Assembly (NCBI GenBank): GCA_945936135.1
Contig: CAMESG010000006.1
Span: 1-64,000, forward strand
DNA: 64,000 nucleotides
Source of the DNA: an uncultured Mollicutes bacterium
Lineage (GTDB): Bacteria > Bacillota_I > Bacilli_A > RFN20 > CAG-826
Reading direction: 5' to 3'
Shown here in pieces: positions 45,567 through 58,540 of the stretch (position 1 is its first letter; the number at the start of each line of letters is the position of its first letter). The translations under genes were made by a program, and so were the position numbers. The notes below the pieces were generated by a model. That model was not told where the DNA came from and made no database searches. It saw nothing but the letters and a program-made list of their open reading frames with translations.

Positions 45567-48380
45567 TCAGGGCGATCGCTTTTCTTTTCCTTTCGATGAA
45601 AACCATGAAAACTTTTTCCTTACTTTTCCCGTCTTTTCCTCGCTCAAAAACGGGGCGAAAAAACGAATAAACCCAATGAAAACCAACGTGAAAAGCAATA
45701 AAACGAAAAACGGCAAAAGTGAGATCCTGATCTTTACCGCGGTTTTGAAAATCGAAGCAAGGACAAAGGAAACGGCGATCTCAACAACGAGCAAGGCAAG
45801 GAAGGCGCCAAGAAATCCACTTCCAATTCTTAAATAGCTATTCCAAAAGGTGAACCTCGACACTTCCTTTTCCGATAACCCCAATACCCTTAAGGAATGC
45901 GCTTCTTTCTTTCCTTCCTGGAGATCGACGAACCAAACGAAGATGAAGAGGAGGGTGCTAGAACCCAACGTGATACCCGAGAATAAAAGCAAGACGGAGG
46001 ATAGGTACGAAGTCGTATCCTTCAGGCTTCCTTCGATCAAAGCGCTCGGTGAGCCAAAGCGAAATTCCGGGAAGAGTTTGGATAGGCGTTCTGTTTCCAT
46101 ACTTTCCGACGCTCCTTCCTCGCAATAGAAGATCGCCCCCGTTGGTTCGCACACTAACGGGGAACATCCTAAAGAGTTCACGAAGAAATCCACCGTCCAA
46201 TCGCTAGGGACATAAAGCACTTCCTGTTCTGTTTCCTTTATCTCCGCAATTTGGACTTCCTTCCTTGCAAAACTCCGACTAAGCGTCTGATGAACGACTT
46301 CCTGCGCGGTTTCCGCGACGACGTAAATCGAGGAGGGTTTGCCTAGCTTTTCGAATAATCCGCGCGACAAGGAAACTTCATCCAATCCCAGCTCCTTCTT
46401 CTTTTGCCAGCTTAAATCCGCGGAGATCTTCATCCCTCCTGAACCCGAGGAAAGAACGCTTCCTTCAACGGTCTGCTCAGGTAGGCTTCCTAATAACCCC
46501 GCTTCTTCTAATGGCAGATCGGAATAGGCACGTTCTAACAGAGTCGCCTTCTCTTCCCCGTTCGTTAGAAAGAAGCGTCCCGAGAATCCGGAGATCGCGC
46601 TTTCGACGCTCGCGAAGTATCCTCCGTTCCACGTAGGAAGACGTCCTTTCAAAACCGAAGATCGTTCCATCGCTTGATCTAAGGAAGCGAATGGAATCCC
46701 TCGATTCGAGGATTCATAAAGAAAGAGACGGGAATAAGATGTGGCTTTCCCTGCCTCACAAAGGCTTGGGGCGTTTTCCCCATTCACGACGTCGAAACCA
46801 AAACTCCCCATCCCTTCTTTGGTTCTGATTTTCTTTAGGAAATCACCGGTTGACCCCTTCAATTCAAGAAAGGGGAGGCTTTGGGCCTCTTGGGCCGTCG
46901 TTGGGACTTCCGTTCCTGCATCCTTCAAATGGAAGTAGTCCCCAAAGACCTTTTGATTCCATAAAGGATCGACGTGGTAGATCAAAGGGAGTTTGGAAGG
47001 GACGACTCCTATGGCTTGAAGAAGGAGGTTCTCTTCAAGGTTCCAGGATAGATTCGCCAAACGAAAATCAAGATCTAACGGCTTTTGTTCTAACCTTCGT
47101 CCTAGATACTCGTAGCCTTTCGCCACGCCGAAATCCCGGCAGAGCAAGGCCATCGTATCGTAAGGAAGGCCCAAGACGACTTCATCCCAAGCCAAGGAGC
47201 CAATCGAAGTTGGATAGACTTCAACATCATCCTTTAGGAAAAGGAAATCATTGATGTTCCGCGCGGAAAAGAGGGGAAGCATCTTCTCGCTCACGCCACT
47301 TCGATAATAGAAATATCGATCGTCAACAAAGGAATCTTCAAAGTCATAGAGATAGCTTTGCCCTACCGCATAGACTTCTTCAGGGAAAGTTTCTTGGATC
47401 AAACGCGCTTCTTCTTTGCTTCCCAAGGACCATTCAACGTTCCCTTGGCTCTCTTTTTCCATCACGATCGCATGAGGCGGGATAAAGGAAGAAAACGCCG
47501 ATCTAATCTCCTTTTGGAGACTTGAGGATAAATAGGCCGAAAACCCTAAGCCCAATAACCCAAAGGATAAACTCGCCTCGATCAGGCGGCACCGCCAAGG
47601 ATGGGCTTTCCGTTTCCTCAAGGCATAGGAAAGGATGCTTTTCAAAGGAAGCGAAGCCTTCTCCTTCTTCTTTTCCAGAGGCGTCAAATTCAATCTCGAT
47701 CCGCGCGGTCTTTCAAATCTCTCGTCTTTTACGATCTTCCCATCTTCTAAGGTCAACAACCGATCGACGTATCGTTTCATCCTGGCCCCATCATGGCTCA
47801 CGAGCAAGACCAAACGCGTCTTCGATAGCCTTGCAAACAAGGAAAGCGCTTCTTCGGAACGCTCTTCGTCCAAGGCGCTCGTCGGTTCATCCAACAAGAG
47901 GATCTTCGGAGAGGTCACCAGGGATCGCGCGAGGTTCACGCGCTGCTTTTCTCCTCCGGAGAGGGTGAGGACATCCGCTTTCTCTTTGTCCTTCATCCCC
48001 AAAAGGAACAAAGGGGCTTTGGCCTTCTTCTCTTGCCCGTTCCCGTTTTCTAACGCTTTCAAAGGCAAAGCAACGTTAGAAAGCGAATCTTCCAAGCCCA
48101 GGAGTTCATCCTTTTGGATCGAAAACCCGATGTGTTCCAACCGAAAGGCATCGCTTTCTTCTAAAGTCCAATTCCTTGTTTCGTTCTCTCCATAAAAGAT
48201 CGACCCTTCATCTGGCTTTTGGAGCAAGGCAATCAAAGAAAGCAAGGTGCTCTTTCCGCATCCAGAAGGCCCTTGGATACCAATGAATCCGGTCCCAGGA
48301 AAACGGAGGGTGATGTTCGAAAGCACCTTTCGCCCGTCAAAGGACTTCGAGACGTGAAGCAAGGCAAGAAGGCTATTCAT
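45567..48380 (-). CDS. MacB-like ABC transporter, ATPase fused to FtsX-type permease (large)
   Basis: 937 residues. The ATPase (1-225) has IQGPSGCGKSTLL, LTLSGGEKQRVNLARS and ILLLDEPTSALDEERS. A membrane helix lies near residue 265, then about 500 residues of extracytoplasmic domain, then three helices near the C-terminus (for example LLLFSGITLGSSTLLFIFVW). The final residues are very basic. It overlaps the upstream ABC gene by eight bases, so the two are translated together and may form one heterodimeric exporter. Substrate unknown; lipoprotein or antimicrobial-peptide export are family possibilities. Confidence 0.85.
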   Translation of the reverse strand: MNSLLALLHVSKSFDGRKVLSNITLRFPGTGFIGIQGPSGCGKSTLLSLIALLQKPDEGSIFYGENETRNWTLEESDAFRLEHIGFSIQKDELLGLEDSLSNVALPLKALENGNGQEKKAKAPLFLLGMKDKEKADVLTLSGGEKQRVNLARSLVTSPKILLLDEPTSALDEERSEEALSLFARLSKTRLVLLVSHDGARMKRYVDRLLTLEDGKIVKDERFERPRGSRLNLTPLEKKKEKASLPLKSILSYALRKRKAHPWRCRLIEASLSFGLLGLGFSAYLSSSLQKEIRSAFSSFIPPHAIVMEKESQGNVEWSLGSKEEARLIQETFPEEVYAVGQSYLYDFEDSFVDDRYFYYRSGVSEKMLPLFSARNINDFLFLKDDVEVYPTSIGSLAWDEVVLGLPYDTMALLCRDFGVAKGYEYLGRRLEQKPLDLDFRLANLSWNLEENLLLQAIGVVPSKLPLIYHVDPLWNQKVFGDYFHLKDAGTEVPTTAQEAQSLPFLELKGSTGDFLKKIRTKEGMGSFGFDVVNGENAPSLCEAGKATSYSRLFLYESSNRGIPFASLDQAMERSSVLKGRLPTWNGGYFASVESAISGFSGRFFLTNGEEKATLLERAYSDLPLEEAGLLGSLPEQTVEGSVLSSGSGGMKISADLSWQKKKELGLDEVSLSRGLFEKLGKPSSIYVVAETAQEVVHQTLSRSFARKEVQIAEIKETEQEVLYVPSDWTVDFFVNSLGCSPLVCEPTGAIFYCEEGASESMETERLSKLFPEFRFGSPSALIEGSLKDTTSYLSSVLLLFSGITLGSSTLLFIFVWFVDLQEGKKEAHSLRVLGLSEKEVSRFTFWNSYLRIGSGFLGAFLALLVVEIAVSFVLASIFKTAVKIRISLLPFFVLLLFTLVFIGFIRFFAPFLSEEKTGKVRKKFSWFSSKGKEKRSP

Positions 48381-50415
48381 CCTTCAACTCCTCGATGTAG
48401 TTTTTCTTCATGGATCGTTTCAAAGGCAAGGCCACGGAACCCCAAGATAGAAGCAAGGCGAAAAGCAAGAAGACCAAGATCCAAAATCCAGGAACGTTTA
48501 AGAAACGAAAGGGAAGGCGAATCAGGTTCTCAATCCCAAAGGTCGAAAGAAAAAATCGGTTCAACACATCGGATAGGATCGGATAAAAAGCAAATCCAAA
48601 GATAAGGCCTAGTATCGCGATGAAGGCGCATTCGTTCTCAAACAAGGACCCGACGTCTTTTTGCCTTGCCCCCAAGGTCATGAGGATCGCCCATTCTTTC
48701 TTGTGGGCGCTGAAACAGGCTAGGCCATTCATCCCTAAAAGAAGGGCTAAACTCAAGAAGCCAATGACCATGAACAAGCCAAGCGCCATCTCAAAGCCAT
48801 CACATAAAGAAAGAAAGGCGGAAGCTTGCAAAAACAAGGGAGAAGAGACGCTGTAGCCTTCAAAATCTCCTTGCAGTTCTTCCATTTTCCTATGCAAATT
48901 CAAGGCGGATCTTTCGTTTAACGCATAAACCAAGCAGGCGTTCCCTAGATAGGGAGAATCGTTAGGAAGTTCATCTAGAAAAGACAATAGGTTCCCGTGA
49001 TCCGGGAACGCCTTCTCTAGGATCGGCAAGGGCAAGTTCCTAAGAAACGACTCTAACCCATCATAGGAATAATAAAGCCTCGGCTCTCCTAGAAAAGGGA
49101 AGTCCTTGACCTTTCCTAGAACGGAGAAAGGCAACGTCAACGACACTTCTTCGTTCACCCCTTTATAGGAAAAAGACATCGACCAAGGGACTTCATAGAC
49201 GTCTCCTAGGCTTGCCCCATAGGTAGCAAAGAAGGCCTCGTTTCCCAAGACGCCTTCAAAGGAATCGTGAATTAAACTATCTCCTTCCATGACCAAGGAA
49301 GAACCATCCCCATAAAGAGGAAGGAACCTGCAAGAGGATAGGGCTTCTCCGCCTTTTTGAAGGACATGGTATTCCCCAAAGAAAGATCGATAATCCCTTA
49401 GATAAAGAAGGGATCCGCAATCGGATAGCAAGGCGCTCGCTTCTTCGATGCTTGCTCTTTCTTCTTTCACCAAGGTCAAAGGAGAGTTCTCTAGTTTCAC
49501 CGTCTCTTTCCGTTTCACCTCCGCGTAACCGAAGTTCGGGCTAGACGAAACGCTGCGTTCCATCGCTTCTTTCGCACCCAGCATGAAGCCAAGAGACAGT
49601 AGCGAAGAAGAAAAAGCAACCGCGGAAGCGAGGAACCCTAGAAGCGCCTTCCCTCGATCCTGCTTCAAATTCCGTTCAAGGAAAGGCCATCTCCAGGAAG
49701 ATCTGCTCTTTCTTATCTTCTTCTCCTTAACGATAGGGAATGGGGTATCTAAAACTTCTCTAGGGTGTTCTAATCGCCCTTCTTTTAAGATCAGGCGATA
49801 GCCCCCATATCTAGAAGCGAATTCCTTATCGTGGGTCACGAGGATCACCAAGCGTTTCTTGCCTTCTTCTTGAAGGCGCTTCATCACTTCTTCGCCCCGT
49901 TTCTTATCCAAGGCCCCGGTAGGTTCATCCGCGAAGAGAATCTTTGGAGACGTAACCAGGGCCCTTGCTAAACCAACGCGCTGCCGCTCTCCTCCCGACA
50001 TCGTCGAGACGTTTTGTTTCTCTTTCCCTTGTAACCCAAGTTCCTTTAACAAGGGGGCAATTCTCTTCTTTTGCTCTCCTTTTGGAATCGAGGCAAGGTT
50101 CAACGGAAGGGCGACGTTTTCATAAACCGATGCGCCTTCGATCAATTCGTAATGCTGAAAGAGAATGGAGATGTCAAGGCTATGGAAGGCACTTCTTTCC
50201 TTCTCATTCATGGAAGAAAGATCCTTCCCTTCAAAGAAAACCCTTCCTTCCTTGGGGGATAAGTTCCCCGAGAGAAGATGAAGCAAGGTGCTTTTCCCCG
50301 ATCCCGAGGAGCCAAGGATCACGAAGACCCCCAAAGAAGGGAAAACAAAATTCACGTGACGAAAGAAAAACTCGCCTTCCGCGTAGCCCATTCCTAGATC
50401 CCGACATTCAAGCAT
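48373..50415 (-). CDS. MacB-like ABC transporter, ATPase fused to FtsX-type permease (small)
   Basis: 680 residues. VILGSSGSGKSTLLHLLSG is Walker A, STMSGGERQRVGLARAL the signature, and ILFADEPTGALDKKRGE Walker B. One helix near residue 260 precedes an extracytoplasmic domain of about 250 residues, then three C-terminal helices including LGLFMVIGFLSLALLLGM. The tail LPLKRSMKKNYIEELKDE is cytoplasmic. AGGAGG lies before the ATG. The partner at 45567 is translationally coupled. Confidence 0.85.
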   Translation of the reverse strand: MLECRDLGMGYAEGEFFFRHVNFVFPSLGVFVILGSSGSGKSTLLHLLSGNLSPKEGRVFFEGKDLSSMNEKERSAFHSLDISILFQHYELIEGASVYENVALPLNLASIPKGEQKKRIAPLLKELGLQGKEKQNVSTMSGGERQRVGLARALVTSPKILFADEPTGALDKKRGEEVMKRLQEEGKKRLVILVTHDKEFASRYGGYRLILKEGRLEHPREVLDTPFPIVKEKKIRKSRSSWRWPFLERNLKQDRGKALLGFLASAVAFSSSLLSLGFMLGAKEAMERSVSSSPNFGYAEVKRKETVKLENSPLTLVKEERASIEEASALLSDCGSLLYLRDYRSFFGEYHVLQKGGEALSSCRFLPLYGDGSSLVMEGDSLIHDSFEGVLGNEAFFATYGASLGDVYEVPWSMSFSYKGVNEEVSLTLPFSVLGKVKDFPFLGEPRLYYSYDGLESFLRNLPLPILEKAFPDHGNLLSFLDELPNDSPYLGNACLVYALNERSALNLHRKMEELQGDFEGYSVSSPLFLQASAFLSLCDGFEMALGLFMVIGFLSLALLLGMNGLACFSAHKKEWAILMTLGARQKDVGSLFENECAFIAILGLIFGFAFYPILSDVLNRFFLSTFGIENLIRLPFRFLNVPGFWILVFLLFALLLSWGSVALPLKRSMKKNYIEELKDE

Positions 50416-50536: not shown

Positions 50537-50776
50537 TTACTCTTGCTTGCCCGTATCCCCATAATAGGGCATCAAGGGCGCCTCGTGATGGGCGATCACC
50601 TTCTTGACCCTAGAATGGAACTTATCGCGATCGATCATCAAGACGTTGCCACAACCTAGGCAGATGACTTTGACGTCCGCCCCAAGACGGACGATCTGGA
50701 AGCGCTTGCTCCTGGAGGAACAAGGATGAGGGCGTTTCAATTCGACCTCATCGTACAAGGCGAGTTCGATTACCAT
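50537..50776 (-). CDS. DUF951 family protein
   Basis: 79 residues. DEVELKRPHPCSSRS, FQIVRLGADVKVICLGCGNV and LMIDRDKFHSRVKKV are the conserved segments of DUF951 (YyzM-like), a small Firmicute protein with a CxxC that probably binds metal. Its role is unknown. It overlaps the end of fhs by seven bases and so is coupled to it. Confidence 0.85.
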   Translation of the reverse strand: MVIELALYDEVELKRPHPCSSRSKRFQIVRLGADVKVICLGCGNVLMIDRDKFHSRVKKVIAHHEAPLMPYYGDTGKQE

Positions 50777-52380
50777 GGTTCCTCTTCCATTCTCTTGGCC
50801 GCGGGGACTTTTGGGAGTCCTGGCATCGTCATCACGTTGCCGGTCAAGGGGATCACGAAGTTGGCGCCGGCGCTAAGCCTCACCTCGCGGATATGGACCG
50901 TGAAGTTCCTTGGCGCGCCCAAGACCTTTGGATCATCGCTTAAGGAAGCCGGGGTCTTGGCCATGCAGATATAGGCATCGGAGAAGCCAAGACGATCGTA
51001 TTCTTCGAGTTGTTTCAAGGCCGTTTCCTCGTATTGGACCTCGCTTGCGTGGTAGATTTCCTTGCAAATCGTGAAGATCTTTTCCTTCAACGGCATGTGA
51101 CGATCGTAAATCGGGCGATAGAAGGAGGGTTCTTCCTTCAACAAACGCACGACTTGTCTTGCCAAATCCTTCGCCCCATCTCCTCCTTTTAGATAGCCAT
51201 CTAGGAAGGAATAGGCGATATCTCTTTCCTCGCACCACTTTTCCAAGAAGGCGACTTCTTCTTCGCTATCCTGAGCAAAATGGTTGATCGCGACGATGAA
51301 GGGGACGCCGTATTTTTTGATGTTCTCGATATGGGCTTCTAGATTCACCACGCCCTTGGACAAGGCGTCCACATTTGGGGTCGCAAGATCTTCAAACAAG
51401 GCGCCTCCGTGCATCTTCAACGCGCGGATCGTCGCGACCAAGACGACGGCATCCGGATGTAAGTTCCCTTCTTGGCATTTGATGTCCAAGAACTTCTCGG
51501 CGCCTAGATCCGCCCCAAAGCCCGCCTCGGTCACGGTGATCGGGGCCAAATGCAAAGCAAGGTTCGTCGCGATGATCGAGTTGCATCCATGCGCGATGTT
51601 CGCGAAAGGTCCGCCGTGGATCAAGCAGGGGTTCCCTTCTAAGGTCTGCACCAAATTCGGAAGCAAGGCCTTCTTCATGAGTTTCATGATCGCGTGGGTG
51701 ATCTTTAGGTCCTTCACGGTCACGGGCTTGCCTTCATAGGTATAGGCGACGATGATTTTGCCGATCCGATCCAGGAAATCTTCTTCGTTTCTCGCTAGGC
51801 AAAGGATCGCCATGAGCTCGCTTGCCACGGTGATTTGGAATTCTTCGTGACGTTCGGGGCTCTTCGCGCCATTGCCTTTAAGCAAGACATCCCGAAGAAC
51901 GCGATCGTTCATGTCCAAGGCTCTTTTCCATACGACCTTTTCGGGATCGATATTCAACTCGTTCCCTTGGAACAATTCGTTATCGATAACCGCGGAGATC
52001 AAGTTGATGGAACTCGTTAAGGCGTGCATGTCCCCCGTGAAATGAAGGTTGATGTCTTCGCTAGGAACGACGCTTGCCTTTCCGCCGCCGGTCGCGCCGC
52101 CTTTGATGCCAAAGACGGGGCCAAGGCTAGGTTCGCGAAGGCAAAGCAAAGCTTTTTGATCGATCTTGCCAAAGCCTTCCGCCAAGGCGATCGAGGTCGT
52201 GGTCTTGCCCTCCCCCGCCTTCGTTGGGGTGATCGCGGTCACCAAGACCAACTTCCCAACGGGGTTCTTCTCCGCTTCTTTTAAGAAAGCGCAAGAGATT
52301 TTGGCTTTGTCGTTCCCATAAGGTTCCAAGGCTTCTAGGGGGATCCCCGCCTTCTTGGCAATTTCTTGAATCGGTAACAT
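50770..52380 (-). CDS. fhs: Formate-tetrahydrofolate ligase
   Basis: 536 residues. VTAITPTKAGEGKTTTSIAL is the ATP-binding loop and EPSLGPVFGIKGGATGGGKA the substrate region; the length is slightly short but normal. It makes 10-formyl-tetrahydrofolate from formate and ATP, feeding purine synthesis and Met-tRNA formylation. It is followed by DUF951 and preceded by miaA with 14 bases between, in a long minus-strand run. Confidence 0.95.
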   Translation of the reverse strand: MLPIQEIAKKAGIPLEALEPYGNDKAKISCAFLKEAEKNPVGKLVLVTAITPTKAGEGKTTTSIALAEGFGKIDQKALLCLREPSLGPVFGIKGGATGGGKASVVPSEDINLHFTGDMHALTSSINLISAVIDNELFQGNELNIDPEKVVWKRALDMNDRVLRDVLLKGNGAKSPERHEEFQITVASELMAILCLARNEEDFLDRIGKIIVAYTYEGKPVTVKDLKITHAIMKLMKKALLPNLVQTLEGNPCLIHGGPFANIAHGCNSIIATNLALHLAPITVTEAGFGADLGAEKFLDIKCQEGNLHPDAVVLVATIRALKMHGGALFEDLATPNVDALSKGVVNLEAHIENIKKYGVPFIVAINHFAQDSEEEVAFLEKWCEERDIAYSFLDGYLKGGDGAKDLARQVVRLLKEEPSFYRPIYDRHMPLKEKIFTICKEIYHASEVQYEETALKQLEEYDRLGFSDAYICMAKTPASLSDDPKVLGAPRNFTVHIREVRLSAGANFVIPLTGNVMTMPGLPKVPAAKRMEEEPW

Positions 52381-52394
52381 AGGCTAACGCTCCT

Positions 52395-53273
52395 TTATTT
52401 ACTTTCGCTTAATGCGTTGAGGATATCTTGTTCATCCTTCACCCAAATCACGGGGAATTGATGACGGAAGAAGGTTTCTTGTCGCTTCACGTAATGACGC
52501 GTCGCGAGTTTGATGTCTTCCTTGCATTCTTCTAGGCTCTTCGCCCCATCAAGATAGGGGAGGAGTTCCTTCACCCCGATCGCCTGGAAGGCATGAGGGG
52601 TTCTGCCGTATTTTTGAATCAAGGCGAGATCTTCTTCAACGAGCCCTTCCTCGAACATCTCTTCTACCCTTTGCTCGACGCGTTGATACAAAGGGGCGCG
52701 TTCTTTTTCAAGGGCGAAGAAGCGGACATCGAACAAAGGTTCATGTCTTTGTTCTTTTTCGATGTCGCTTTTCTTTTTGCCGGTCGTCAAATAGATCTCG
52801 ATTGCCCTACGAACGCGGATGCGGTTGTTTGGATGGATCGCTTTCGCCGCGTCAGGATCGATATCCACTAATTTATCGTAGAGCTCTTGATCACTTAAAG
52901 AATCATAGGAAGACATGTCGACTTTCGTCGGTTCTTCTTCAAACGAATAATCGTATAAGCCGGCGCGAAGATATAGCCCCGTGCCTCCCGCGATGATCGC
53001 GACCTTGCCTTCTTTTTCAACTTCTTGGAGGGTCCTTCTTAAATCGAGTTGATATTCCGCGACGGAATAATCATGATCCAAGGGAACGAAGTCAAAAAGC
53101 AAATGAGGAACCATGGCCCTTTCTTCAGGGGTCGGCTTTGCCGTTGCGATATTGAGCTCTTGGTAGACTTGAAAAGCGTCCGCGTTGATCACGACCCCAT
53201 TAAGTTTTCGGGCAAGGGAAATCGCGATCTTGCTCTTCCCCGACGCCGTTGGACCCGTCAAGACCAAGATCAT
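52395..53273 (-). CDS. miaA: tRNA dimethylallyltransferase
   Basis: 292 residues. LVLTGPTASGKSKIAISLA is the P-loop, INADAFQVYQELNIATAKPT and VPHLLFDFVPLDHDYSVAEY are the family motifs, and AGGTGLYLRAGLYDY follows. It adds a prenyl group to A37 of tRNAs reading UNN codons. MiaB, encoded immediately upstream with a four-base overlap, then adds the methylthio group, so both steps of ms2i6A synthesis are co-expressed. Confidence 0.95.
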   Translation of the reverse strand: MILVLTGPTASGKSKIAISLARKLNGVVINADAFQVYQELNIATAKPTPEERAMVPHLLFDFVPLDHDYSVAEYQLDLRRTLQEVEKEGKVAIIAGGTGLYLRAGLYDYSFEEEPTKVDMSSYDSLSDQELYDKLVDIDPDAAKAIHPNNRIRVRRAIEIYLTTGKKKSDIEKEQRHEPLFDVRFFALEKERAPLYQRVEQRVEEMFEEGLVEEDLALIQKYGRTPHAFQAIGVKELLPYLDGAKSLEECKEDIKLATRHYVKRQETFFRHQFPVIWVKDEQDILNALSESK

Positions 53274-55018
53274 TCAAAGAAGGCCTCCGCTTCAAGTAGC
53301 AAGGGTTCTAGATCCTTCTTCCTTGCCTCCAAATTCAAGACGAGAGGATCCTCTTGATAGGCTTTTTCCAGGGCTTTTGCGTGGTTTCTTTCTTTGATGA
53401 AAGCCGCATCGTCCCCGTCTTTAACGGCGTTCTGCATGCTTTCTTTGGCCTTGAGGATTTCTTGCTTGAGTTCGTTTAACGCCAAAGATTCTTCGACCGC
53501 TTTCTTGGCAAGAAGGTATTCTTTCGCCGGGGCTTCGCTTAGAAGCAATCTCCCCGCGCGCTTGGCTAACGCAAGAATGGGATCGTCGACCAAGGTGCCC
53601 TTCATGGAGAAGGCGTGGTCTTCTTCGACCAAGACGTTGACGATGCACCCCTTCAAGGCCTTTGGCCCTTTGAAGTGGACAAGTTTTCCATTCTCCGCGT
53701 AACCCGAAAGGAAGTCTGGGTCCTTTTTGGATGGTCCATCGACGAGAATCGAATAGACGTGCCCAAGCATTTGGGAACTATGGAAGGTGACGCCTTCTTC
53801 GACCGCTTTCAAGAGACGGTTGAAGCGTTCTTTCTTGACCTCCATCGCGACGTCGTCCTTCATCTTCGCCGCCGGGGTGCCCTTACGAGGCGAATAGATG
53901 AAGGTGAAGGCCGCGTCGTACTTGACTTCGTTGACCAGGCTTAACGTATCTTCAAACTGCTCTTCCGTTTCGCCAGGGAAGCCGACGATGATGTCCGTTG
54001 TGATCGCGCAGCCAGGGATCTTGGTTTTGATCTTGTTCACCAAGGCTAAATAGTCTTCCCTGCTATAGCGACGGCCCATGATGCGGAGCATCGAGGTCGA
54101 ACCCGATTGGACGGGAAGATGGATGCAAGGCATGATGTTCTTGTTTTTCGCGATCACATCGAGCATCTCGTCGGAAAAATCCCAAGGGTGGCTCGTCATG
54201 AAGCGAAGGCGCGGAATCCCTAGATCCGCGACCTCTTGGAGAATGGTCGCAAAGCTCGTCCCGTCCTTGAAGTCCTTGCCATAGCTATTGACGTTTTGCC
54301 CAAGTAAGGTGATCTCTTGATAGCCTTCTTCGATCAGGGCCTTGCATTCTTTCAAGATATCTTCCTTGGCCCTGCTCCGTTCTCTGCCCCTCGTATAAGG
54401 GACGATGCAGTAGGTGCAGAATTTATCGCACCCATAGGTGATGTTCACGAAGGCCTTATAGGAATCCAAACGGGTGGAAGGCAAGTTCTCGACGATGTCC
54501 CCGGGATAGGAAACGATGTCGACGATGTCTTTCTTCCGTTCCAACGCCTCGGCGATCAAATTCAAAAGGTTCGATAGGTTATGGGTTCCAAAGATCAAAT
54601 TGACGTAAGGATAGGAGGCCTTCACGGCTTTCGCGACCCCCTCTTCTTGCATCATGCATCCGCAGACGGCAAGGAAAAAGGAAGGATCGGCCTTGCGGTT
54701 GGCCTTGAATTTGCCGATCTCGCCATAGACCTTCTCTTCGGCGTTCTCTCTGACCGCACAGGTATTGATGATCACTAGACCCGCTTCAGCTTCGACGTCG
54801 GTCCGTGTCATCCCCGCGAGTTCGAGATAGCCTGCCATCACTTCTTCATCGCGCACGTTGCCTTGGCAGCCAAAGGTTTTGATGAAGTATTTACGGCCTT
54901 GTCCAAACGCTTTGACGCTTTCAGGGACAACAGCATCTTCGCGGATGGTCTTCGGATCAAGGCGCTTGGTACGAGCCTTCGATAAGTCAGGGAGAGATTT
55001 ATAAATGGTGCGTGACAT
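53270..55018 (-). CDS. miaB: MiaB methylthiotransferase with fused YlbF-like C-terminal domain
   Basis: About 582 residues, longer than the usual 440-510. The UPF0004 domain (about 45-165) has KTFGCQGNVRDEE, VINTCAVRENAEEK and AVCGCMMQEEG with the first three cluster Cys. The radical-SAM motif is YGCDKFCTYCIVPYTRG. A TRAM domain lies near 400-470. The last 90 residues (PAKEYLLAKKAVEESLALNE onward, with YQEDPLVLNLEARKKDLEPL) look like a YlbF/YmcA domain. In Bacillus, ymcA follows miaB as a separate gene and its product acts with YlbF and YaaT on RNase Y. Start at 55018; it overlaps ymdB by 20 bases. Confidence 0.85.
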   Translation of the reverse strand: MSRTIYKSLPDLSKARTKRLDPKTIREDAVVPESVKAFGQGRKYFIKTFGCQGNVRDEEVMAGYLELAGMTRTDVEAEAGLVIINTCAVRENAEEKVYGEIGKFKANRKADPSFFLAVCGCMMQEEGVAKAVKASYPYVNLIFGTHNLSNLLNLIAEALERKKDIVDIVSYPGDIVENLPSTRLDSYKAFVNITYGCDKFCTYCIVPYTRGRERSRAKEDILKECKALIEEGYQEITLLGQNVNSYGKDFKDGTSFATILQEVADLGIPRLRFMTSHPWDFSDEMLDVIAKNKNIMPCIHLPVQSGSTSMLRIMGRRYSREDYLALVNKIKTKIPGCAITTDIIVGFPGETEEQFEDTLSLVNEVKYDAAFTFIYSPRKGTPAAKMKDDVAMEVKKERFNRLLKAVEEGVTFHSSQMLGHVYSILVDGPSKKDPDFLSGYAENGKLVHFKGPKALKGCIVNVLVEEDHAFSMKGTLVDDPILALAKRAGRLLLSEAPAKEYLLAKKAVEESLALNELKQEILKAKESMQNAVKDGDDAAFIKERNHAKALEKAYQEDPLVLNLEARKKDLEPLLLEAEAFFE

Positions 55019-55802
55019 GGTTGAACTCCTTTCCATCTAAGAAGCGCATGGGCTCAACGGAAGAGCACTTGCCCGTCAAAGGATCGATGCGCAACAAGAC
55101 GCAATCGATCTCGGCAGGCCCATCTTCTGCAATCGCGAAGCGGTTGCCCTTCTTGTACAAAAGCGCATCGAGGATCGAATCCGGGCGATAACCGATGATC
55201 CCATCCTGCATCCCGCAATAGCCGACATCGGTCAAGAAACCGGAACCTTCGATAATGCAAGGATCCGCGGTTTGAACGTGGGTGTGGGTTCCGATCACCG
55301 CGGAGACCCTGCCTTTGAAGGCTTCCAAAAGCATCTTCTTTTCCGAGGTCGAATCCGCATGGAAATCGACGATCCGGACGCTCGCCTCTGGATCAAGCGC
55401 GTCTTCTAACGCTTCGAAAGGAGAATCGACTTCTTCTTTCATGAAGGCTTGGCCCAAAAGATTGACGACTTGGATCGAGGTACCGCCTAGATCGAAGGTC
55501 AAGGATCCGCTTCCGAGGAAGTAGGTCGGCAAATTCAAAGGCCGAACGAGTTGCTCGGCCTCTTCGATGTAATCGTCGATCTGATCGCGTCCGTGGTAAT
55601 GGTTGCCTAGAGTGACGCAATCAACCCCCAAGGCCAAAAGGCGGCGGTATTCCTTGTAGGTCAAGCCGCTGCCCTTGCAGGTATTCTCCCCGTTGACGAT
55701 CACGAAGTCGGCACCGAGGGCTTTCTTTAGACGCGGAAGGTGCTGCTCCAAAGCCTCTAGGCCAATCTCGCCGACGACATCGCCAAAGAAGAGAACGTTC
55801 AT
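54999..55802 (-). CDS. ymdB: YmdB-type metallophosphoesterase
   Basis: 267 residues. NVLFFGDVVGEIGLEAL, VIVNGENTCKGSGLT, VTLGNHYHGRDQI, FHADSTSEKKML and IGTHTHVQTADP are the conserved blocks with the metal ligands. YmdB hydrolyses cyclic mononucleotides and influences RNase Y, biofilm and sporulation in Bacillus. Here it lies between rny (four bases upstream) and miaB. The start at 55802 replaces a longer unsupported frame. Confidence 0.92.
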   Translation of the reverse strand: MNVLFFGDVVGEIGLEALEQHLPRLKKALGADFVIVNGENTCKGSGLTYKEYRRLLALGVDCVTLGNHYHGRDQIDDYIEEAEQLVRPLNLPTYFLGSGSLTFDLGGTSIQVVNLLGQAFMKEEVDSPFEALEDALDPEASVRIVDFHADSTSEKKMLLEAFKGRVSAVIGTHTHVQTADPCIIEGSGFLTDVGYCGMQDGIIGYRPDSILDALLYKKGNRFAIAEDGPAEIDCVLLRIDPLTGKCSSVEPMRFLDGKEFNHVTHHL

Positions 55803-55806
55803 AGGC

Positions 55807-57399
55807 TTACTTCGCGATCTCCTGCGCGCGGTATTCGCGAATGACCGCGACCTTGATTTGGCCAGGATAGGTGACGTTATGCTCGATGTTGTCGCGGATG
55901 TCCTGGGCCATCTTGACGGCTTCGGCATCGCTCACCTTATCCGGCAAGACGATGACGCGGACTTCGCGACCCGATTGCATGGCATACGCCTGAGCGACGC
56001 CATCGTAGCTCTTGGCGATCGTTTCCAAGGCTTCGATGCGTTTGACGTAGGTTTCTAGGGTTTCCGAACGCGCGCCGGGACGGGCGGCGCTAAGGGTATC
56101 TGCGGCGGCGACCAAGTAAGAGATCACGCAGGTCGCAGGGACATCGCCGTGGTGGCTTTGGATCGCGTTGCAAACAACGTCGTTCTCGCCGCACTTCCGC
56201 GCGATTTCATAGCCCAATTGGACGTGGGTGCCTTCTTGTTCGAAATCGACCGATTTGCCGATGTCGTGGAGAAGACCCGCGCGACGGGCAAGGTTCGTAT
56301 CTAACCCGAGTTCCCCCGCCATAAGGCCGGCGAGATAGGCGACTTCCATCGAATGCATCAAGGCGTTTTGGCCATAGGAAGTACGGTAATGCAAACGCCC
56401 GATCAAGGGGACCAAGTCGCGATGCATGCGCGGCAAGCCGAGCTTGAAGATCGCTTCTTGTCCGTATTTCACGCAGGAATCATCGACTTCTTTTTTCACT
56501 TTCGCGACGACTTCTTCGATGCGGCCCGGTTGAATGCGGCCGTCTTTTACGAGGATTTCGAGGGATTTGCGCGCAATTTCGCGACGGATCGGATCGAAGC
56601 AGGAAACGGTGATCGCTTCCGGGGTATCGTCGATGACGAGATCGACGCCGAGTTGTTGTTCTAAGACGCGGATGTTGCGGCCTTCGCGTCCGATGATGCG
56701 GCCCTTCATCTCATCGTTAGGAAGGGCGACGACCGAGACGGTGCGTTCTGTGACGACGTCTTGGGCGTAGCGTTGGCAGGCGGAGACGAGCAAATCGATG
56801 GCGCGGGCTTGCGCGGTATCGCGGGCTTCGTCTTCCGCGTTCTTGATATAAGCGCTGATCTCCATCGCCATCTTGCTTTCGACGCGCTTCATGATCTCGT
56901 CATGGGCTTCGGCGATCGACATCCCGGAAACCTTCTCAAGTTCTTTGATGATGCTATCGATCTTCTCGTCCAATTCTTCCTTGCGCTTCTTCTGAAGTTC
57001 GAGTTGGCGATCAAGGGAGGCGTTCTTCTGTTCGATGCTTTCCGCGCGGCGAAGCAATTGGGCTTCGCGCTCGGTGAAAGCGTCCATGCGCATGTCGAGC
57101 TTTTGCTGCTCGGAAGCGATTTCCGCCTTGCGCTGGCGGGTGTAATTGTCCGTTTCCTGCTTAGTTTCGAAAGCGGTTTGCTTCGCGTCAAGCTGGGCGT
57201 TTTTGATGATGCGATCGGCTTTGTAGTTCGCATCCTTGATGATGTTGTCGGCTTTGCGGGTTGCCGTAGAACCCTTGCGTCTTCCAAGCAAGAAGACAAT
57301 GAGAACCGTGATGCCGGCGGCAATGGCAGCGGCAGCGACCGCGACGATGATCACGTGCCAGACTTCAATTTGCGTGGCAAATAGGGTCAGGGTAGACAT
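55807..57399 (-). CDS. rny: Ribonuclease Y
   Basis: 530 residues. An N-terminal membrane helix (VIIVAVAAAAIAAGITVLIV) is followed by a long Lys/Glu/Ala-rich coiled coil (about 45-200), a KH domain with GRIIGREGRNIRVLEQQLG, and an HD domain with LLHDIGKSVDFE and IQSHHGDV. It starts mRNA decay as a membrane-bound endonuclease. AAAGGAG precedes the ATG. It is the first gene of the rny-ymdB-miaB-miaA-fhs run. Confidence 0.95.
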   Translation of the reverse strand: MSTLTLFATQIEVWHVIIVAVAAAAIAAGITVLIVFLLGRRKGSTATRKADNIIKDANYKADRIIKNAQLDAKQTAFETKQETDNYTRQRKAEIASEQQKLDMRMDAFTEREAQLLRRAESIEQKNASLDRQLELQKKRKEELDEKIDSIIKELEKVSGMSIAEAHDEIMKRVESKMAMEISAYIKNAEDEARDTAQARAIDLLVSACQRYAQDVVTERTVSVVALPNDEMKGRIIGREGRNIRVLEQQLGVDLVIDDTPEAITVSCFDPIRREIARKSLEILVKDGRIQPGRIEEVVAKVKKEVDDSCVKYGQEAIFKLGLPRMHRDLVPLIGRLHYRTSYGQNALMHSMEVAYLAGLMAGELGLDTNLARRAGLLHDIGKSVDFEQEGTHVQLGYEIARKCGENDVVCNAIQSHHGDVPATCVISYLVAAADTLSAARPGARSETLETYVKRIEALETIAKSYDGVAQAYAMQSGREVRVIVLPDKVSDAEAVKMAQDIRDNIEHNVTYPGQIKVAVIREYRAQEIAK

Positions 57400-57676: not shown

Positions 57677-57709
57677 GACAATTGCACGTGTCTCCCAAAA
57701 AGTTTGGAA

Positions 57710-57736
57710 ATGTCTACTTTTTTTGGTTACCAGTGC
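57710..57736 (+). repeat. Copy B of the 26-bp repeat shared with 19279-19304
   Basis: ATGTCTACTTTTTTTGGTTA continuing CCAGTGCA. It abuts the RHS remnant that begins a few bases later, and the other copy abuts the broken Fic gene region. Confidence 0.5.
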
Positions 57737-57739
57737 ACG

Positions 57740-58540
57740 CGACAGGGTGTCTGGTTTCCGTCGGATGCGATCTCGATTCTTCGGGCAACCCGACGAAGCA
57801 CCTCGACGGGTCGCTGGAAACCTTCGCTTTCACCGAATCCACCTTCACGAATGCATGGATCTCGGCGCTCAAAACTGCGACGGCGTCCTCGATTCGGACT
57901 TACTTCGACGAAGTGGGGCGACCAACGGTGAAGGAGATCGCCGACCAAGGGAACGCTCTGAGGAAGAGCTACATTTACAAAACGAATGGGGCGTTCGATA
58001 CGACGAGAATCGAAAGAGAAGTCAACTTCCTCGATCAAACCGCCCTTTACGGCTACGACCCCATGGGAAAAGTAACCTCGATCGGCTATTCGGGCGGGGC
58101 GAACGCCACGGCGCTGCCGAAGAGCAAGACCTACGTTTACGATCCGTTCGGGCGCCTCGTCTCATCCAAGCACGGGACCGCGAACCACGGCTATTCCTAC
58201 GACAAGGACGGAAACATCCTCGTAAAAGATGGCGTGACCTACACCTACGACGCCGCCTTCAAAGGGCGCCTTAGATCCAGGAACGACAACATGCTCCTCG
58301 AATACAACGACGCCTTGCTGGGCAACCGACCATAAAGACCATCGATTCCGCGAAGGGGTTCTTCGTCTCCAAGGTCAGCCACTTCCTGTTCAAGGGATAT
58401 TTCCACGACGAGGAGACGGGATTCTACTACCTCGAATCCCGCTACTACGACCCCGAACTCGCGAGGTTCATCTCGATCGACGAGGCTTCCAACCTTGTCG
58501 ATGCCATCCATCGATTTCTAAAAACTTCCTGCCCTCGTTG
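57740..58540 (+). pseudogene. RHS-repeat protein remnant
   Basis: A frame without a supported start carries RHS/YD-type repeats: FDEVGRPTVKEIADQGN, TALYGYDPMGKVTSIGYSGG, KTYVYDPFGRLVSS and GYSYDKDGNILVKDGVTYTY. It stops near 58335. After a short break the second frame has the RHS core end: FKGYFHDEETGFYYLESRYY, then DPELARFISIDEA, and decays. The middle of the protein is missing. RHS proteins are large secreted toxins or surface proteins. The remnant is GC-rich and bounded on the left by repeat copy B, which suggests damage by a mobile element. Confidence 0.75.

Follow-up and report, generated by a model that had tools for sequence, protein, structure and literature searches.

A single open reading frame on the minus strand of the 64,000-nucleotide stretch of DNA analysed here (the window), from an uncultured Mollicutes bacterium, encodes a complete MiaB joined at its C terminus to a YmcA (RicA) domain. 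YmcA is a helper subunit that directs RNase Y, the main mRNA-cutting enzyme. On the evidence of sequence comparison, we propose with a probability of about 78% that the product is a bifunctional MiaB–RicA protein, the RicA part of which still serves the RNase Y specificity complex (Y-complex). In a group of uncultured bacteria from gut and rumen, this fusion is of long standing and stably kept, and it arose at least four times independently within a single family. Its parts are known and apparently stand here in a covalent, recurrent arrangement not described before; no MiaB–RicA fusion is described in the literature found, with subscription full text and protein architecture databases outside the search. 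The features of the window that bear on this proposal are as follows.

50770–52380, minus strand: fhs-like gene (formate–tetrahydrofolate ligase), named from reading the sequence; its place in the order is kept in most relatives
52395–53273, minus strand: miaA (TIGR00174, 290 bits), the start of which overlaps the fusion gene stop by 4 nt
53270–55018, minus strand: miaB–ymcA fusion gene, 582 aa, an open frame matching TIGR01574 (MiaB, 518 bits)
53273–53584, minus strand: YmcA/RicA-like Com_YlbF domain, residues 485–588 (PF06133, PDB profile match, AF2 and Foldseek)
53577–53590, minus strand: fusion joint, the site of the ancestral miaB stop/ymcA start overlap, from comparison with unfused relatives
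53588–53773, minus strand: TRAM domain, residues 422–483 (Pfam, 28.8 bits)
53936–54448, minus strand: Radical SAM domain, residues 197–367 (Pfam, 102 bits), with cysteines C203, C207 and C210
54587–54892, minus strand: UPF0004, the MiaB N-terminal domain, residues 49–150 (Pfam, 91 bits), with cysteines C57, C93 and C127
54999–55802, minus strand: ymdB-like metallophosphoesterase gene (TIGR00282, 231 bits, slightly below the cut-off of 254)
55807–57399, minus strand: rny, RNase Y (TIGR03319, 651 bits)

These genes form one minus-strand run in the order rny–ymdB–miaB/ymcA–miaA, followed by fhs. The original prediction had put rny and ymdB in a run with the fusion gene, and both indeed lie upstream of that gene there; miaA, on which that prediction was silent, belongs to the same run. 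This run therefore encodes RNase Y together with the RicA delivery subunit and the two i6A/ms2i6A enzymes, and the operon order is unchanged with or without the fusion. A promoter and terminator scan was uninformative, with promoters at chance level. Two other loci nearby were recorded separately: just upstream of rny, on the opposite strand, 57682–58335 (plus strand) holds an open reading frame with YD/RHS-repeat-like sequence, possibly a gene remnant, and 45567–50415 (minus strand) holds two adjoining long genes (937 and 680 aa) that look like fusions of an ABC ATPase with an FtsX/MacB-type permease.

The fusion gene starts at the ATG at 55018, which is preceded by the Shine–Dalgarno sequence AAAGGAG at 55026–55032; an in-frame ATG further upstream, at 55036, is a less likely alternative, and the residue numbering used here (protein P0001) begins at it, six codons before the 55018 start. 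Residues up to 484 constitute a complete MiaB by Pfam (UPF0004, Radical_SAM and TRAM), scoring 518.3 bits against NCBIfam TIGR01574, for which the equivalog cut-off is 355.3. The auxiliary-cluster cysteines of the UPF0004 domain (C57, C93 and C127) and the cysteines C203, C207 and C210 are invariant across 134 MiaB rows of relatives. Consistent with this assignment, the MiaB part shares 40% identity with the solved MiaB structure 7mjz and has a TM-score of 0.87 over the 7mjz chain. In a full-length structure model the tail again forms a module of five helices, predicted with high local confidence, and the TRAM domain passes into it without a linker, the joint lying at '..GTLV-DDP' in the window's protein. 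As a side observation, PDB 9a6d appeared in the Foldseek list; it models MtaB, a relative of MiaB, together with a protein called YvfG on the basis of cross-linking, and the known protein partners of methylthiotransferases may not be the full set.

The existence of this frame, with a complete MiaB and a Com_YlbF-type tail, agrees with what had been proposed for 53270–55018. The tail had been described as 90 residues with a YlbF/YmcA pattern; the family match is borne out, but the length is about 101 residues. PF06133 scores the window's tail at 24.3 bits alone (E = 4.4e-5; cut-off 23.9) and at 19.1 bits within the full protein, which is below the cut-off. Because this protein's own score is marginal, the Com_YlbF assignment rests on the whole set of tails: PF06133 matches 62 of 62 fused tails and free homologues (alignment A2), and several fused relatives lie above its cut-off, with scores up to 41.2 bits. 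A profile built from fused tails only and compared with the PDB specifically points to YmcA/RicA, matching RicA 6prh (3.5e-9) and YmcA 2pih (6.2e-9) ahead of RicF (3.6e-4) and YheA (0.34). When the profile is built from the separate YlbF proteins in this family, RicF (1.8e-6) and RicA (2.0e-6) match about equally. The AlphaFold model of the tail (mean pLDDT 96.6) has the five helices of the Com_YlbF fold, as opposed to a helical tail unlike YlbF, and the top ten Foldseek matches to it in the PDB are all members of the Com_YlbF family; the best, 6prk, 2pih and 6prh, have TM-scores of 0.72–0.83, and no match has an E-value below 0.001. Fused and free forms share a conserved core that includes an invariant proline (P82) and a near-invariant asparagine (N86; A2 numbering). 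By profile, fold and position, the tail is YmcA.

The position of the joint indicates how the fusion arose. In Bacillus, ymcA directly follows miaB, as the original prediction noted, a neighbourhood that has been remarked on without explanation (PMC6751060), and the same order is found in relatives of the window's organism. Almost all unfused relatives in the family have ymcA immediately after miaB, the two overlapping by 4–29 nt, most commonly 8. These junctions follow the pattern GGAGAA..GT.AATGAATGA, in which the ymcA Shine–Dalgarno sequence lies inside the Gly-Glu codons of miaB and the ymcA ATG lies over the miaB stop. Fused genes have the two frames joined exactly at the old overlap, mostly as '..GEL-x-(D/E)DP..', with no linker. 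The overlapping miaB and ymcA, which were probably translationally coupled, would thus have had their frames merged at the miaB stop and ymcA start. The GGAG and spaced start of ymcA are present at 29 of 40 unfused junctions versus 7 of 51 fused ones, a loss to which base composition may have contributed in part, in GC-rich fused genomes. Because these signals have mostly decayed in the fused clade, production of a separate free RicA is unlikely, and an internal start yielding one was rejected as a candidate.

Relatives had been named as the place to look for the fusion, and it is present there in about 50 distinct sequences. In a tree of 134 MiaB sequences, 48 distinct fused sequences and one re-split sequence form a single clade (SH-aLRT 99), and three further fused sequences (G060, G070 and G155) sit apart among unfused relatives; branches with good support require five changes in total, and beyond the clade the fusion was gained at least three more times. 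Sampling of the order found the fusion in 8 of 8 genomes of the window's genus (g1), in all 15 of genus g24 and in 2 of 16 of g26. It was absent from about 55 genomes representing the order's other families and from the further families sampled in the class and phylum, in which ymcA beside miaB also occurs. Named fused members are metagenome-assembled genomes of uncultured 'Erysipelotrichaceae', 'Bacilli' and Candidatus Alloenteromonas, many of them from the rumen or horse faeces. The re-split species (L062, 7433–7780) lies deep inside the fused clade, with the genes apart again (a stop, 4 nt and an ATG). Inspection eliminated one seemingly fused genome outside the family, G222, which has an in-frame stop between the two genes, and three with long frames that are not fused (G234, G294 and G009).

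The partners of the fused module bear on whether it still works as RicA. In Bacillus, RicT needs RicA and RicF in order to bind RNase Y stably, and a hand-off has been proposed (PMC10470536). Elsewhere in the window's genome we located both a separate ylbF (L001, C4; 122 aa, PF06133), next to rsmD- and coaD-like genes named by reading, and a single YaaT/RicT (L003, 1294–2487, plus strand; NF041131, 236 bits) with the six-cysteine motif. No other ymcA was detected in this genome, the PF06133 loci being the fused one and ylbF (a laxer search at E 0.05 counts a third weak match that is not among the matches listed), and the fused module is therefore the sole RicA candidate. RicT is encoded in 26 of 26 fused genomes, always with the CX4CCX30CX4CC motif, and RicF in 25, ylbF being undetected in one, G094. 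Genera g9, g10 and g35 have neither a detectable ymcA nor a detectable ylbF (genomes G008, G009, G039, G052, G061 and G072; loci L168 and L252–L254) and retain yaaT and miaB, as well as rny where seen; in g35, miaB directly overlaps miaA. Because genomes without ymcA also lack ylbF, RicA and RicF appear to come and go together. Separately, RicT may act alone in these three genera.

RicT itself differs in length. Among the genomes of the tree sample (RicT loci L003, L227–L251 and L266–L285), it is long, with an open frame of at least 330 aa, in 20 of 26 fused versus 1 of 31 unfused genomes, and the long C-terminal tails that were read are rich in N, Q, K, R and H and probably disordered. Both independent g26 fusions (G070 and G155) also have a long RicT, and their nearest unfused sisters have a short one. 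The association is suggestive, a lead and not a result, because it holds for three of the four fusion events and a few other unfused genomes also have a long RicT.

A second difference, which like the recurrence of the fusion was absent from the original prediction, concerns cluster 2. In Bacillus, C141 of RicA and two cysteines of RicF ligate this Fe–S cluster (PMC6751060). A cysteine occurs within the last 15 residues in none of 51 fused tails and in 2 of 41 free homologues; its loss is therefore not caused by the fusion, because unfused relatives lack it too. RicF has two C-terminal cysteines in the window's genome and mostly one or none in the family (alignment A4; L001 and L197–L221), and its C-terminal cysteine is lost in those genomes of g24 and g26 that were read, while RicT retains all six. 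No fused-specific MiaB cysteine offers a substitute for the missing RicA ligand, as the candidate C231 is common to most unfused relatives that keep ymcA. With the RicA cysteine gone and the RicF cysteines reduced, the complex is not identical to that of Bacillus, and cluster 2, if present in the family, must be bound differently. We therefore class the tail as YmcA on grounds of descent and do not call it a cluster-ligating RicA.

Rates of evolution bear on whether the RicA part still works. At a given MiaB identity, tail identity in fused proteins is about that of free YmcA and slightly lower in some bins (0.27 versus 0.30 at 55–60% MiaB identity; 0.36 versus 0.43 at 70–75%), and most unsaturated pairs of fused tails have a dN/dS well under 0.5, consistent with purifying selection. 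Taken together, the partners, rates and conserved core suggest that the fused module is probably still a working YmcA. We infer a model in which the MiaB part, with its activity intact, methylthiolates i6A37 of tRNA in the usual way once MiaA, the product of the next gene, has acted; the RicA part would form a pair with YlbF (RicF), which is encoded separately, and the two would hold YaaT (RicT) and deliver it to RNase Y as they do in Bacillus. A fused chain would fix MiaB and RicA at 1:1 and put MiaB in or beside the Y-complex.

Whether the covalent bond itself matters is a separate question. It is about an even bet that it does not, MiaB and RicA having merged neutrally and kept independent jobs: overlapping out-of-frame neighbours can fuse by a small indel and persist as neither activity suffers. 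Such a history concerns why the fusion was kept and is compatible with the bifunctional reading. It accords with fusion exactly at the inherited overlap, with a tail rate about that of free YmcA, with an operon order that is the same in both states and with the re-split deep in the fused clade. Against it stand the recurrence of the fusion, gained at least four times in one family and kept in 23 of 23 sampled genomes of two genera; its absence from the other sampled families despite the same neighbour arrangement; and the long RicT tails, which hint at a changed complex. A fusion that recurs and is kept for so long is a strong genomic hint that MiaB and RicA act at the same place, and the natural fusion, its unfused sisters and the re-split together make a simple testable system.

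The physical link between tRNA-modifying and mRNA-decay proteins that had been foreseen is real in that both are, by sequence, a single protein; a link in function we only infer, and regulatory cross-talk between the two processes is speculative. Functional coupling, in which the state of MiaB (its Fe–S clusters, tRNA occupancy or i6A supply) controls RicT delivery to RNase Y, or the tether recruits the Y-complex to tRNA or to ribosomes, strikes us as possible and rather unlikely. MiaB and the Ric complex are both Fe–S proteins (PMC6751060, PMC11448259), the Bacillus Y-complex starts the cleavage of mature rRNA (PMC13230545), nothing separates TRAM from RicA helix 1, and rny, miaB/ymcA and miaA share one run, all of which would suit such coupling; the missing cluster-2 cysteine and the lack of a fused-specific MiaB cysteine argue against it. 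Somewhat more doubtful is the specific form in which the specificity complex of RNase Y is physically attached to the machinery for tRNA ms2i6A, MiaB status (iron–sulfur supply or modification load) gates mRNA choice, and the complex has been remodelled accordingly, with cluster-2 cysteines lost and a long, disordered, basic RicT tail.

A tail no longer in the Y-complex, working for MiaB alone as a domain for dimerisation or tRNA binding, is improbable. Homodimers of RicA can form in Bacillus, and the missing RicA cysteine and the reduced RicF cysteines in g24 would fit such a role; retention of RicF and RicT in nearly all fused genomes, the joint loss of ymcA and ylbF elsewhere and the free-YmcA-like evolution of the tail speak against it. 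That the tail is an unrelated helical segment resembling YlbF by chance, or the product of an assembly frameshift, draws on the marginal Pfam score in the full protein and is already refuted for the fused clade (outside which the singletons G060, G070 and G155 lie) by the PDB and Foldseek matches, the 62 of 62 PF06133 matches and the approximately 50 distinct fused sequences from many sequencing projects, which rule out assembly error.

Compared with known MiaB (PDB 7mjv–7mjz, TIGR01574), the bifunctional protein proposed here is alike in all three domains and the six cysteines (TM-scores of 0.87–0.92 when normalised by the MiaB chain) and differs in its roughly 100 additional C-terminal residues, the RicA domain. 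RicA/YmcA of Bacillus subtilis (PDB 2pih, 6prh and 6prk) has the same five-helix Com_YlbF fold and is the best profile match, its gene likewise lies right after miaB, and its partner genes ylbF and yaaT are likewise in the genome; the domain described here is instead joined to the MiaB C terminus and lacks the C-terminal extension that bears C141. YlbF (RicF) and YheA belong to the same Pfam family, PF06133, but are weaker profile matches than RicA. As for the Y-complex, or RicAFT with RNase Y, its components RicF, six-cysteine RicT and RNase Y are all encoded here, whereas RicA is covalently joined to MiaB and RicT often carries a long, N/Q/K/R-rich C-terminal tail.
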